DNA of 52,362 bases from Oligoflexia bacterium (lineage in GTDB: Bacteria; Bdellovibrionota; UBA1018). How positions within the stretch are numbered: the first letter of the stretch is position 1; each line of letters starts with the position of its first letter. A program made the translations under genes and the position numbers. Location of the stretch: the NCBI GenBank assembly GCA_014376785.1, contig JACMQW010000050.1, positions 1-52,362 of the forward strand. The letters run 5' to 3'. Shown here piece after piece: positions 21,763 through 27,281 of this stretch. The notes below the pieces were generated by a model that worked only from the letters and a program-made list of their open reading frames with translations, did no database searches and was not told the DNA's origin.

Positions 21763-22434
21763 GTGAAGAAATTAAAGCTTCCGAATCTGATCGGAACAAT
21801 CCAGTTAAGCGCTTTACCGGGCTCTCCCGGGTCTCGAGATCTGCATCCGACCGATGCGGTGCGAATCGCCGGCCTTCGTGCTGTAAAAGAAGCGAGAGAA
21901 TTGAAGAAGGCTGGTTTTAAAGCCCTGATGCTGGAAAATACCGGGGATACCCCTTATTTCGAGCGCTCGGTTTCTCCCGAAACATTAGCGAGTTTCGCTT
22001 TCATTGCTGCAGCAGTCAGAGAAGCCGTCAGCGTTCCGCTCGGAATTCGCGTCCTAAGAAACGATTCGCGGGCAGCGCTCGCGATAGCGGCAGTGACTGG
22101 TCTCGAATTCATCCGGGTTCGGGGACTGATGACCACTGGCGCAGAACTACTCAGGGAGCGCGACCGTCTCGGAGCAGAAGTGGCGATCTTAGCCGACCTC
22201 TCGAACGATCCTCGGTCTTTTTTGCGAGAGTCCGGAGCGGATGGAGTGATCATCCCGGTCGGCATTGCGGCTGAAACGGTTGCGGCACTCCGGGCGGCAA
22301 ATGCGAAAACGAAACTTCCAGTTTGGGTAGCGGACGGCGTGCGAGACTCATTCGCACGCGAAATTCAGTCGATGGGATTTGGTGCTCTCATCGAATCAAA
22401 TCACCGCGCGGTCGCGAAAGCGTTTAAAAAATGA
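21763..22434 (+). CDS. BtpA/SgcQ-family TIM-barrel protein
   Basis: The 223-residue protein opens with LIGTIQLSALPGSPGS and has EARELKKAGFKALMLENTGDTPY. These match the BtpA/SgcQ family, a TIM barrel of poorly defined function: BtpA affects photosystem I assembly in cyanobacteria and SgcQ lies in a sugar operon in E. coli. The organism shows no photosynthesis genes, so the photosystem role should not be transferred. The start is GTG. A small GGACG/CGTCC hairpin lies about 25 bases upstream. The stop overlaps the start of the downstream recombinase gene (ATGA), which suggests coupled translation. Confidence 0.78.
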   Translation: MKKLKLPNLIGTIQLSALPGSPGSRDLHPTDAVRIAGLRAVKEARELKKAGFKALMLENTGDTPYFERSVSPETLASFAFIAAAVREAVSVPLGIRVLRNDSRAALAIAAVTGLEFIRVRGLMTTGAELLRERDRLGAEVAILADLSNDPRSFLRESGADGVIIPVGIAAETVAALRAANAKTKLPVWVADGVRDSFAREIQSMGFGALIESNHRAVAKAFKK

Positions 22435-23750
22435 AGTTAGGTGGCTGGCTCGTAAAAGGGTTACGAAATCCACGACCGACTCGGAAACGAACAGGTCGAC
22501 GAGCGAAACGACTGCAGCACCGGAAATTTTTTCTCCGGAGCGAAGCCGACGAAAAAGAAAGTGAAAAAAGTTTTGGCGGGATCGGAGACCCGGGCTCTGA
22601 GGTGGGGACCGCATCCGCCTCGGCCATTCCGCATCCAGCCAGCACTCTTGCAGCCACACCTCCTGCAGTGATTTCGGCAGAGGTCGAAGTTTTACCCGTC
22701 GAATTGCCGCGGCCCCTGAACCTCATCGCCCCCCCAGGCCTTCGGGCAGAAGAATTCATCCGCCCCGACAGTCGGCTTCGCCAGAGTATCGAAGCGTTCT
22801 TACTCGACCAACGCTCACCCCACACGCGCCGAGCATACGGTAAAGATCTCGAGCGCTTTTTGAAATACCTCATCGTCCGGAATGGTCGACGGAACACGGA
22901 ACAGGGCCCTGAACACCTGAACCGCGCCGTTCTCATCGGCTATAAAGATTTTCTACTTGCGGAGAAACTCGAACACACCACGGTCGATCGCCACCTCGCG
23001 ACCCTCCGAAGTTTTTTTCGCTGGCTCGTGGACGATGGCATCATTGAAAAAAATCCAGCCGAAGGCGTGCGGTTTCTGAACCCAAAGCGCCTTTCGCGAA
23101 CGAACGCTTTCACCGACTTAGAAGTGGTGAAGCTTTTGAAAGGCCCAAACCTTCACACGCGAACCGGCTCCCAGCATTACGCGATGCTCATGATTCTTTT
23201 TTACTGCGGGCTGCGGAGGTCTGAACTCTGTGATCTGAAAAATGCGAGTCTCGGCGAAGAACGCAGTCATCACGTCCTCCGGCTCCGAGGAAAAGGAAAT
23301 ACAGAGCGCATGATTGTGTTGATTCCAGCCGTCTGGAGTGCGCTTCAGCACTATTTTATGATCACGAAAAAAGACCTCGCGCGTGGCGAATTTCTCTTCT
23401 CACCGATTCGAAATAATCGCACTGGTGTGAAAGATAAAGCGATCGATCCGTCGATGATTTTCTACATCGTGACGAAATACGCAAAAATGGCAGGAGTAGC
23501 GAATCGGGTTTCCCCCCATTCATGTCGGGCTACGGCGATCTCGAATGCCCGCGATCATCAGGTGCCTGACCGCGCGATCCAGGAATTCGCCGGATGGGCG
23601 AGTCCGGACATGATCACTCGCTATGATAAGCGGAAGAATTCCGTCGAAAATTCCGCAGCCCGCGCCATTGAATACGGAGAGCCGAATCGTCCCTTGCCGT
23701 CGCTTGCGATTCGGCCTGACTCGGACGAGGGCAGAGAGGGGGACTCATGA
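22431..23750 (+). CDS. XerC/XerD-like tyrosine recombinase with intact catalytic residues
   Basis: The 439-residue product has a core-binding domain (residues 112-205, SPHTRRAYGKDLERFLKYL) and a full catalytic set: Arg262 (CGLRRSEL), Lys288 (RGKGNTER), His363 and Arg366 (PHSCRATAI), Trp389 (AGWAS) and Tyr398 (TRYDK). It should therefore cut and rejoin DNA. XerD proteins are about 300 residues. Here about 110 extra N-terminal residues, Arg-rich then Pro/Ala-rich, precede the core, and the true start may lie downstream, for example at GTG 22602. The ATG overlaps the BtpA stop. A dif-like palindrome lies 380 bases downstream. It could be the chromosome dimer resolvase or an integrase. Confidence 0.85.
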   Translation: MKLGGWLVKGLRNPRPTRKRTGRRAKRLQHRKFFLRSEADEKESEKSFGGIGDPGSEVGTASASAIPHPASTLAATPPAVISAEVEVLPVELPRPLNLIAPPGLRAEEFIRPDSRLRQSIEAFLLDQRSPHTRRAYGKDLERFLKYLIVRNGRRNTEQGPEHLNRAVLIGYKDFLLAEKLEHTTVDRHLATLRSFFRWLVDDGIIEKNPAEGVRFLNPKRLSRTNAFTDLEVVKLLKGPNLHTRTGSQHYAMLMILFYCGLRRSELCDLKNASLGEERSHHVLRLRGKGNTERMIVLIPAVWSALQHYFMITKKDLARGEFLFSPIRNNRTGVKDKAIDPSMIFYIVTKYAKMAGVANRVSPHSCRATAISNARDHQVPDRAIQEFAGWASPDMITRYDKRKNSVENSAARAIEYGEPNRPLPSLAIRPDSDEGREGDS

Positions 23751-24120: not shown

Positions 24121-24162
24121 AAGTTATTTCATTCGCGATAACTTCTCTTATCGCGAATAAGA
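24121..24162. other. Overlapping palindromes with a dif-like 11-6-11 core
   Basis: ATTCGCGATAA (24131-24141) and TTATCGCGAAT (24148-24158) are perfect 11-bp inverted repeats separated by the 6 bases CTTCTC. This is the geometry of a Xer recombination site. The inner ATAA-N6-TTAT matches the conserved edges of dif. Two shorter inverted repeats overlap it: AAGTTAT/ATAACTT (24121-24144) and TCTTAT/ATAAGA (24146-24162). It lies between convergent genes, so a terminator is the main alternative, but neither strand has a T-run after the stem. Confidence 0.5.
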
Positions 24163-24188: not shown

Positions 24189-25376
24189 TTAATAACCGAA
24201 AAAAAGCAGATTTTTAGGACTGAGTCGGCCGAGGGCCCGAAAGAGCCAGGCGCAACGGGTGTCGGAGCGGGAATTGTATTTTTTCTCAGAGGCGAGTTTC
24301 GTGAAGGGGGTGTGCGGAAGAATTTTGGTCGCGGCCCCTTCTTTCAACCTCGCTTCGCCGATTCGTTTTGGCAGAAAAGATCGATAATCTTTCCAAGGAA
24401 GGCCGGTCTCGGTCACAAATCGGTAAAATCCCAGAGCAGCTTCGAGCTCGGTCTCGGGAGTGAGGAGGGTTGCACCGAATCCGACTCGGCCGTCCTTGCT
24501 CTCTAAATAATCGATCCGCCGCTGGAGCAGTAAAATTTCGCTCAAAAAGACGTCGGCATTTGCTTGAGCGGCAAAGCCCCGAAGCTCCAATGTTTGCCGA
24601 TCACTTTCATAAGCAAACTGATCAATTCGAGTGACGTTCGCATCTTGATACTTTTCAGCTGGCTCCCATTTCGATGGGGTCGCGTAGTAAACCTGTTTAT
24701 TCAGCGCCCGAGCGAATTCCACCGTGGTGGTGATCTTACCCTCATCGAAATCTCGGATGACGGCGATGAACGCGCGTTTTTGGGGAACTGTCAGCTCAGA
24801 TATCGGCGGAGCGTTTGCGGGGTCATGGTTGAAAATCCCCATAGCAAGTTCTGGGTGATTTGCCCGGTCGACAATAAAGTTCCGAAGGAGGAGGGGATTT
24901 TCATTAAACCCGGAGACCACTCCGATGTGGACGTGTCCGGCTCCCTCTTCGGCAGAGGGGAAGAGTTCACATTCGGCCGCAACGTCGAAAATATCGGACT
25001 GAATGCGGTCTCTCATCTCTTGAAATTCTTCATAAGTTGCGGGAGCCGTTTGAACTTCGATGGTTCCGTTGTCAGTGCTGATTCGAAAAGACCAGCCGTC
25101 TTCATAGGTGACGACGTAATCCATCGAGCTTAAGCCCTTTCGAGGACTGCTCGAGACTCGGCAATCTCGCCGAACCGCGCAAATTTTCTCGAGTTTTTCT
25201 CGCATGGCGAGCTGGTATTTTTTTAGCACGGGATGAGAGATCCCCTCGGTCGCGGAAGTCTCTGCATTATGAAATTCGAACTCTGCGCCAAAAAGCGCAG
25301 GAGCCGCGAGAGCTTGCATCGCGGTCGCGCAACTCAAGCTCAATGCAACCGCAGCGATGAGGAGAAGGCGAATCAA
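24189..25376 (-). CDS. Exported amidoligase-like protein
   Basis: The 395-residue product has a signal peptide ending near Ala-Leu-Ala-Ala (residue 25). The mature part shows the motif order of the putative amidoligase family (glutamine-synthetase-like fold): GAEFEF (Glu32, Glu34), TIEVQTAP (Glu107), GHVHIGV (His148, His150) and TLELRG (Glu264, Arg266). Members are predicted to join carboxyl and amino groups using ATP. An exported one is odd, because ATP is scarce outside the cytoplasm. The start is a TTG overlapping the stop of the upstream gene (TTGA), so it is translated together with the tandem NlpC-like protein. The amidoligase call rests on motif order seen by eye. Confidence 0.65.
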   Translation of the reverse strand: MIRLLLIAAVALSLSCATAMQALAAPALFGAEFEFHNAETSATEGISHPVLKKYQLAMREKLEKICAVRRDCRVSSSPRKGLSSMDYVVTYEDGWSFRISTDNGTIEVQTAPATYEEFQEMRDRIQSDIFDVAAECELFPSAEEGAGHVHIGVVSGFNENPLLLRNFIVDRANHPELAMGIFNHDPANAPPISELTVPQKRAFIAVIRDFDEGKITTTVEFARALNKQVYYATPSKWEPAEKYQDANVTRIDQFAYESDRQTLELRGFAAQANADVFLSEILLLQRRIDYLESKDGRVGFGATLLTPETELEAALGFYRFVTETGLPWKDYRSFLPKRIGEARLKEGAATKILPHTPFTKLASEKKYNSRSDTRCAWLFRALGRLSPKNLLFFGY

Positions 25377-27250
25377 AGCGGGGCGTCCTCAATCAAAAGC
25401 GTTCGCTGACAACCCTTTTCGAAGAATTTGCGAAGGACCGTGAAATTCAAATCATCGGCTAACTTCCCCTCGCGGTTCACAATCCGGCGTTCCTTGAGAG
25501 CCGGGAATGCAAACCAAGGAAGCGATGTATAAACCCGGTCAAGGACTCCACGGTCTCTCTTTAAGTACGCATCGAGCGCGTAAAAGAGGCTATTCGTGCA
25601 GTTTTTGAGCGCATAGTTGTAGACCTTCGGCATGGTCGGATCATGCATCACTTCGATCACCGACCAAAACAGGTCGTTTAACCGAGTTTCAGAGAGCTTG
25701 ATCTTCATCTGCTGAACTTCGTTTTTATCGTTGATGATCGACGCCCGAATTTTATCTTTTTCAGAGATCAAACGATGAGCCAGGCCGAACTGACCGGTCA
25801 TGCCTGCGATAAAGCCGAATTCTTGGGGTCCGCCCACGGTGCGTGCTCCTTCGACCGAAAAAATGATTCCCGGAAGTTTCACGGGTTCAGCCTTCGGATC
25901 TTTTTGGTTGAAGAGAGTCGCTTCTTTTCCGTCTTTGAAAACGAATCGCATCTGGGTATGGGCGATCCCTAAGTTGGGCTCCAAAATTTGCTTTTCAAAA
26001 AAGATCTCGCGGATCGCGTCGCGCTCAATCGCCATGACCCAGTAAGTTTCTTCATGCGAGACGTTTGCGAGCAGGCGGATGTTCTCGTGGTTCGGAATCG
26101 ACTTAAACGAGTGGGGACTTCTCTTTTTAAAGTGAGCGTCGAATTCCGCAGGGGTAATGATCTTGTACCCACGCGACCCACCATCGCCGACGTTTAAACA
26201 CCGTTTTTTACTCTTCCAAAATTGCATCTCCCAGACGCGACTCGTCCAAGAAGGCATGATCCCACTCGGTGCAAACGGGTCTTTTGCCAGCGGACAACCG
26301 CTAGCCACATCTGCCTTATCATATTCGCGGGCGGCAAACCGCTCGATCAGTTCTTCCCTAAGGTCCGGTAATTTTTCTTTTCCAAGCAAGTGACCCAGTT
26401 CCAAACCCTGTTTTGCGTAAGTGGGTGCGAGAATGATTCCGCGCTGGGCGAGTTCATTAAACCATCCGATGCGCGCGGGCTGCCAAGCCTTGAACATCTC
26501 AAAGAGCTGGGTGGTGCAATTCCGGGACACCGTATCGTAAAGCTTCGTCATTTCCGGATCATGAAAAAAGGGAAGCATGAACTTCCACAGGCCGTTTGCT
26601 TCCTCGGTCGTGAGTGAAAGTCGATACTGACGAACCCGCTGATCCTGCCGGACGCTCATATCGTCGGCTCTTTCCCAGAGCGACGCAAGCCGAGCTGCGT
26701 TCGCAAACGCTCCCTGCATGCCTTCTTTTAAGTCGTAACCCTTACCGTCTAGGAGCGAAACGATTTCGTGGGAAAGAATGATTTCGCCCAGTGAGATCGG
26801 ATCTCGGGATCGGTCGGTCTGATGGTAAAGAATGACCGGAGTTTCAGGCCTGAAGTTCACCCGGAGCTGGGTATGAGCCGCAATCAGGAGCGGCGGAAAT
26901 TCATCGATTTGAAAATCGATCGTCTCGACCGCATCCACTGGAAACGCCCCAATCCAGTGCTCGTGATCATGGCTCACGTTTGCAATAAATTGGTACTCGA
27001 CCCCTGCTTTTAAATGTCCGAAATTTCCGACGACTCCTCGAGCCTGCTCAGGCGTAATCAACCGGTAACTCCGCTTACTCGGGTCTAGGCAATGATTTGC
27101 CCGAGGCCCGGATGGCATGACGGTCGGACCCACGAATGGATCTCCCTCCGGTCGACAATCCGCATGCGCGGATGAGACGAAGAGGATGCTGAGCATTCCA
27201 AGTGCCAGTAAGAAAGAGTGGGGCTTCAGGCGTTTTATCCAAGAGTTCAT
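25373..27250 (-). CDS. Exported protein with two DUF4105/NlpC-like thiol hydrolase repeats
   Basis: I start at the ATG at 27250, which has GTAAGG close upstream, rather than 27262. A signal peptide ends at Ala-His-Ala-Asp. The mature protein is an internal duplication: residues about 37-256 and 324-561 share DPF...MPS, Y(R/K)(L/I)ITP, ANVSH, AHTQ(L/M)R and NCT..LF. In the DUF4105 (Lnb N-terminal) and permuted NlpC/P60 group, the His of AHTQ and the Cys of NCT are the likely catalytic pair (His126-Cys245 and His431-Cys551), so both copies look active. Such enzymes cut amide bonds in peptides or lipoproteins. It overlaps and precedes the amidoligase-like gene. Confidence 0.7.
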   Translation of the reverse strand: MNSWIKRLKPHSFLLALGMLSILFVSSAHADCRPEGDPFVGPTVMPSGPRANHCLDPSKRSYRLITPEQARGVVGNFGHLKAGVEYQFIANVSHDHEHWIGAFPVDAVETIDFQIDEFPPLLIAAHTQLRVNFRPETPVILYHQTDRSRDPISLGEIILSHEIVSLLDGKGYDLKEGMQGAFANAARLASLWERADDMSVRQDQRVRQYRLSLTTEEANGLWKFMLPFFHDPEMTKLYDTVSRNCTTQLFEMFKAWQPARIGWFNELAQRGIILAPTYAKQGLELGHLLGKEKLPDLREELIERFAAREYDKADVASGCPLAKDPFAPSGIMPSWTSRVWEMQFWKSKKRCLNVGDGGSRGYKIITPAEFDAHFKKRSPHSFKSIPNHENIRLLANVSHEETYWVMAIERDAIREIFFEKQILEPNLGIAHTQMRFVFKDGKEATLFNQKDPKAEPVKLPGIIFSVEGARTVGGPQEFGFIAGMTGQFGLAHRLISEKDKIRASIINDKNEVQQMKIKLSETRLNDLFWSVIEVMHDPTMPKVYNYALKNCTNSLFYALDAYLKRDRGVLDRVYTSLPWFAFPALKERRIVNREGKLADDLNFTVLRKFFEKGCQRTLLIEDAPL

Positions 27251-27261
27251 CGCCTTACTCA

Positions 27262-27281
27262 TCGGGAGCGCGTGCTCCCGA
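27262..27281 (-). promoter_or_regulatory. Perfect hairpin just before the DUF4105-like gene
   Basis: TCGGGAGC and GCTCCCGA form an 8-bp perfect inverted repeat with a 4-base loop. It ends 12 bases before the ATG at 27250. It could be an operator or a leader hairpin limiting ribosome access; there is no T-run. Confidence 0.45.

Follow-up and report, generated by a model that had tools for sequence, protein, structure and literature searches.

Enzymes that follow the glutamine-synthetase plan depend on ATP and are normally cytosolic. The Lnb_N domain, formerly DUF4105, defines a clade of permuted NlpC/P60 proteins; its characterised representative, Lnb, is a lipoprotein N-acyltransferase and not an amidase, and proteins with this permuted arrangement have lipids as substrates or serve as acyltransferases (PMC12994826). 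The dif site is a 28-nt intergenic palindromic motif found near the replication terminus and linked, in some groups, to a recombinase gene (Carnoy and Roten, PMC2731167). Proteins related to the first two systems, and a site resembling the third, were found in a 52,362-nucleotide contig stretch (hereafter, the window) that belongs to the genome of an uncultured member of the Bdellovibrionota, a relative of Bdellovibrio. Two genes lie there on the minus strand, the one for P2 (629 aa) first and the one for P1 (395 aa) second:

25373-27262, minus strand: P2, predicted exported protein of 629 aa, whole open reading frame
26288-27262, minus strand: predicted signal peptide and Lnb_N domain 1 of P2 (AHTQ, NCT)
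25373-26287, minus strand: Lnb_N domain 2 of P2 (AHTQ, NCT), terminating in a 4-nt overlap with P1
25373-25376, minus strand: TTGA overlap, made of the P1 start (TTG) and the P2 stop (TGA)
24189-25376, minus strand: P1, predicted exported amidoligase-fold protein of 395 aa, with a putative signal peptide at about residues 1-24, the catalytic-type residues E32, D102, E107, H148, E264 and R266, and the mostly conserved cysteines Cys66, Cys72 and Cys375

As a sequence-only reading of this DNA had proposed, the two open reading frames overlap by 4 nt; the P1 start codon, a TTG, is preceded by GAGGA 8 nt upstream. From this overlap, P1 and P2 are probably co-transcribed at this locus. The GC and GC3 contents of the pair match those of its neighbours, so that composition gives no sign of recent horizontal acquisition. 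Both proteins start with a charged, hydrophobic leader of the AxA type that resembles a signal peptide, in agreement with the signal peptides that the sequence-only reading had ascribed to both products. Simple signal-peptide scoring is crude and unspecific, as 106 of 250 control ORFs also pass, and the case for P1 export hence rests mainly on its conserved cysteines and on the N-terminus of the family, which is conserved, hydrophobic, AxA-ended and located directly before the first strand. Signal peptides are strongly indicated for both P1 and P2 by these sequence features.

P1 gave no match to Pfam at E-values up to 1, and no usable match to the NCBIfam, PHROGs and PADLOC models. PDB sequence searches with P1, P2 and their profiles returned no usable relative, and no relative of P1 was found in the viral contigs searched. 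The AlphaFold model of P1 (pLDDT 79.5, pTM 0.77) was more informative. In VIA comparisons, whose alignments span about 230-264 residues, it scored Z values of 12.4 with the glutamate-cysteine ligase 2gwc, 11.8 with YbdK (1r8g), 11.7 with Dop (7oy3), 11.4 with glutamine synthetase and 10.1 with PafA, and its top Foldseek matches were without exception glutamine synthetases or GmaS (E 1.9e-4, probability 1.00). Likewise, hhalign aligned the P1 family with PF12224 proteins of the same phylum at a probability of 96.2 (E 1.6e-9), ten column-shuffled controls and one reversed control all remaining below 1%, and the P1-family and PF12224 profiles independently matched the same genes (for example G207:C72, at 2.3e-11 and 5.6e-5, over the cut-off). 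We conclude from the model and the profiles that P1 has the glutamine-synthetase/glutamate-cysteine-ligase (amidoligase) fold. The description of the 395-aa protein as amidoligase-like, proposed earlier from its sequence, is thus borne out by the structural matches, the profile alignment and an intact set of catalytic-type residues, and the glutamine-synthetase-like fold on which that description depended was indeed present (best VIA Z 12.4). None of 18 P1 homologues matched PF12224, and this family had no match within P1's own genome; since P1 falls below the Pfam threshold, we consider that it represents a separate family within the superfamily and is not a PF12224 member.

A single-sequence search detected relatives of P1 in 18 of the 58 related genomes, and a profile search in about a fifth of the sampled Bdellovibrionota genomes (67 of 291, a few of them counted through weak matches to larger proteins). 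A contig search with a narrower P1 alignment yielded nine loci, all in Bdellovibrionota-type MAGs, and the family has so far been seen in Bdellovibrionota only. Its members keep the motifs GxE, D....E..(P), GHxHxG and ExR, in the order found in the glutamine-synthetase/glutamate-cysteine-ligase superfamily. D102, E107, E264 and R266 are present in 25 of 25 homologues, and E32 (with one gap) and H148 in 24 of 25, the homologues being otherwise about 21-35% identical to P1. The conserved acidic, His and Arg site residues of the superfamily are therefore retained across the family (24-25/25); they would correspond to the metal- and nucleotide-site residues of glutamine synthetase. Of the two His in the HxH motif, the second is replaced by Asn in 8 of 25 homologues and missing in 5 of 25, so that some members of the family may be altered. 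P1 might then be a catalytically dead binding protein that has retained the fold, which would suit both the members deprived of the second His and an exported protein without a conserved partner. However, a dead protein would need none of the six catalytic-type positions, which persist in 24-25 of 25 homologues at this level of divergence, and we consider this explanation rather unlikely. As a separate observation, three open frames of about 1850 aa (G038:C11, G045:C14 and G051:C9; L098-L100) give weak amidoligase matches with the PF12224 profile as well as with that of P1.

Ligase or ligase-like chemistry is the most likely reading of P1 from its sequence and model, and we give it about even chances. 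P1 would bind metal and nucleotide through E32, D102, E107, H148, E264 and R266, and would join a carboxylate and an amine into an amide bond, or possibly hydrolyse such a bond as does Dop, the depupylase of the same fold. It would work outside the producer's cytoplasm at a place where nucleotide exists, most plausibly within a different cell or adjacent to one. The caveat is that an ATP-consuming enzyme would be located outside the cytoplasm, with no obvious source of energy. This difficulty would disappear if P1 were a Dop-like hydrolase that cuts extracellular amide or isopeptide bonds and keeps its nucleotide bound as a cofactor instead of consuming it. Dop is among the best structural matches of P1 (Z 11.7), but the Z-scores to the ligases and to Dop are tied within about 1, and we judge a hydrolase of this kind unlikely. 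The ligase reading gains weight from PF12224 proteins with exported-type N-termini, some of them with an ATP-grasp region (R2K-type, assigned from weak Pfam scores that stay under the curated cut-off). The highest-scoring PF12224 proteins of the phylum look cytosolic (L158, L161, L163 and L164), and many others carry exported-type N-termini.

P2 matches Lnb_N (PF13387) in two stretches (65.7 bits, for a cut-off of 22.2), which are 28% identical to each other; the fold is assigned from this Pfam match only, the P2 model predicted without an alignment having a pLDDT of 32.6. The two copies of a His/Cys site noted earlier (AHTQ and NCT) proved intact when the repeats were aligned, each half holding its His and its Asn-Cys (AHTQ...NCT), and H100 and C219 are invariant across 16 members of the P2 family. 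Lnb has a membrane-spanning segment besides its signal peptide. A simple hydropathy scan of P2 found no hydrophobic segment beyond the signal peptide, so that, by its architecture, P2 is not Lnb. The sequence-only reading had given P1 and P2 opposite chemistries, amide-forming and amide-breaking, a contrast that we abandon: the nearest characterised relative of P2 is a lipoprotein N-acyltransferase (PMC12994826), making acyl chemistry likelier than amide cleavage. A canonical NlpC/P60 amidase acting on the cell wall would agree with the Cys/His pair of P2, which belongs to the papain-like clan (PMC10318531), but His precedes Cys in both halves, as in the permuted NlpC/P60 arrangement with its lipid-acting and acyltransferase members (PMC12994826), and an amidase therefore appears quite improbable. 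By its sequence and by analogy with its relatives, P2 is most likely a soluble, exported protein, either a thiol acyltransferase or a lipid or amide hydrolase, that would act via a Cys acyl-enzyme.

The same genome contains five further relatives of P2. Three of them are single-domain exported Lnb_N-type genes grouped within 7 kb on contig C17 (L080, about 2.8-9.8 kb). The best Lnb_N match of the genome is a 658-aa protein (G000:C27; L081:5182-7158, minus strand) with an outer-membrane beta-barrel-like C-terminus. It was considered as the housekeeping Lnb, a candidate that was dropped on account of this barrel-like end and of the absence of a hydrophobic segment after its signal peptide.

The pair had also been read as a two-gene exported module. 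Overlapping genes and the predicted export of both products would indeed suit a functional module in which P2 and P1 act sequentially on one exported peptide, lipoprotein or wall substrate. However, among 291 genomes a P2-family neighbour was found at only 1 of 79 P1-family places, which is the window itself, and the next closest pair of P1-family and P2-family genes is 26 kb apart. No conserved neighbour gene was seen in 25 loci of P1 homologues. The flanking genes (BtpA-type, Xer and prolyl oligopeptidase) are shared by the sister genome G002, which has neither P1 nor P2 between them but a methyltransferase-like gene and a short ORF for an exported product. The module would draw some support from one P1 homologue (L054:2606-4417, minus strand), whose N-terminus is fused with a transglutaminase-like, exported domain (DUF553, papain-fold; 22.4 bits, for a cut-off of 20.5). 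Thiol chemistry and this ligase fold can thus share one protein, and no other observation hints that they work together, but the partner domain is not Lnb_N. We conclude that P1 and P2 are paired only locally and do not form a conserved two-step system; their sequential action on one substrate is very doubtful.

The sequence-only reading had further described a perfect hairpin in front of the first gene. The perfect inverted repeat does exist, but because both genes run on the minus strand it is located downstream of the pair, 31-58 nt after the P1 stop codon, next to a recombinase gene:

24131-24158, no strand assigned: dif-like 28-bp site ATTCGCGATAA-CTTCTC-TTATCGCGAAT (11-6-11), outside the gene pair
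22431-23750, plus strand: Xer-type tyrosine recombinase gene, 439 aa, linked to the dif-like site in eight genomes

A role of the palindrome as terminator or regulator was rejected, as it lies downstream, has no T-tract (the 91 nt surrounding it have a folding z-score of -1.67), is absent from the terminator scan and is conserved without P1/P2. Indeed, at the syntenic position of G002, where P1 and P2 are both missing, identical arms flank another hexamer. Copies that deviate by no more than two mismatches in the arms occur in 21 of 58 relatives, almost always as a single copy, the reversed pattern used as control being almost absent among these 58. The palindrome thus has the single-copy 11-6-11 organisation, the intergenic position and the location near the terminus of dif/Xer sites. 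A homologue of the 22431-23750 Xer gene is found within about 60 bp to 3.4 kb of the site in eight genomes, including that of the window; since other tyrosine recombinases are present in the genome, this linkage does not establish a single-recombinase system. The main genes are mostly forward to the left of the site and mostly reverse to its right, converging there, and the cumulative GC skew, a weak signal, peaks broadly at 15-30 kb (maximum at 15.5 kb, plateau to about 30 kb), both as expected at a terminus. By its sequence and setting, we conclude that the palindrome is a chromosomal dif-like site, beside an Xer gene at the terminus, and that it is unrelated to P1/P2; the site and the Xer gene are probable markers of the replication terminus in the window.

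Taken together, we favour, with somewhat better than even confidence, a joint reading in which P1 belongs to a Sec-exported family of glutamine-synthetase/glutamate-cysteine-ligase fold, P2 is an Lnb_N thiol enzyme, the two are paired locally, and the dif-like site has no relation to them. The exported amidoligase-fold family is the part that merits follow-up, as an intact active site combined with a signal peptide raises the question of the nucleotide source and of the substrate. The P1 family, the exported PF12224 proteins, the amidoligase/ATP-grasp fusions and the transglutaminase-like/amidoligase fusion could, as a set, mean that Bdellovibrionota repeatedly export ATP-type ligases that act in the prey or neighbour cell, where ATP is present, and modify its peptides or proteins. 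We hold this idea with low confidence; if P1-type enzymes did act in prey, they would represent a new class of predator enzymes. As for the dif-like site, it is of practical use for locating the terminus in these uncultured genomes.

Compared with PF12224 proteins and with glutamine synthetase, glutamate-cysteine ligase, YbdK and PafA/Dop, P1 is alike in fold, strand order and the GxE...D....E...GHxH...ExR motif, whereas it differs from the PF12224/glutamine-synthetase superfamily by having no direct Pfam match, a putative signal peptide, conserved cysteines and an orphan context. The depupylase Dop and the Pup ligase PafA share the fold of P1 (Z 11.7 and 10.1), but are cytosolic and act on Pup. 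With the exported PF12224 proteins of Bdellovibrionota (L091, L092, L095, L096 and others), P1 has in common the superfamily, the phylum and a signal-peptide-like N-terminus; several of these proteins are about 750-800 aa long and end in a C-terminal region tentatively assigned to R2K-type ATP-grasp, a domain that P1 does not have. L091, L092, L095 and L096 each appear to combine two ATP-type ligase domains, PF12224 and ATP-grasp, in a single exported protein. P2 resembles Lnb in its PF13387 match over the cut-off and in its conserved His and Cys, and differs from it by its tandem domains and by having no hydrophobic segment past the signal peptide. Finally, the dif-like site resembles those of the dif/Xer modules difSL-XerS and difH-XerH, being a 28-bp non-coding 11-6-11 palindrome near the terminus and linked to a recombinase, while its arms, ATTCGCGATAA and TTATCGCGAAT, differ from those of the B. 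bacteriovorus HD100 dif (PMC2731167).
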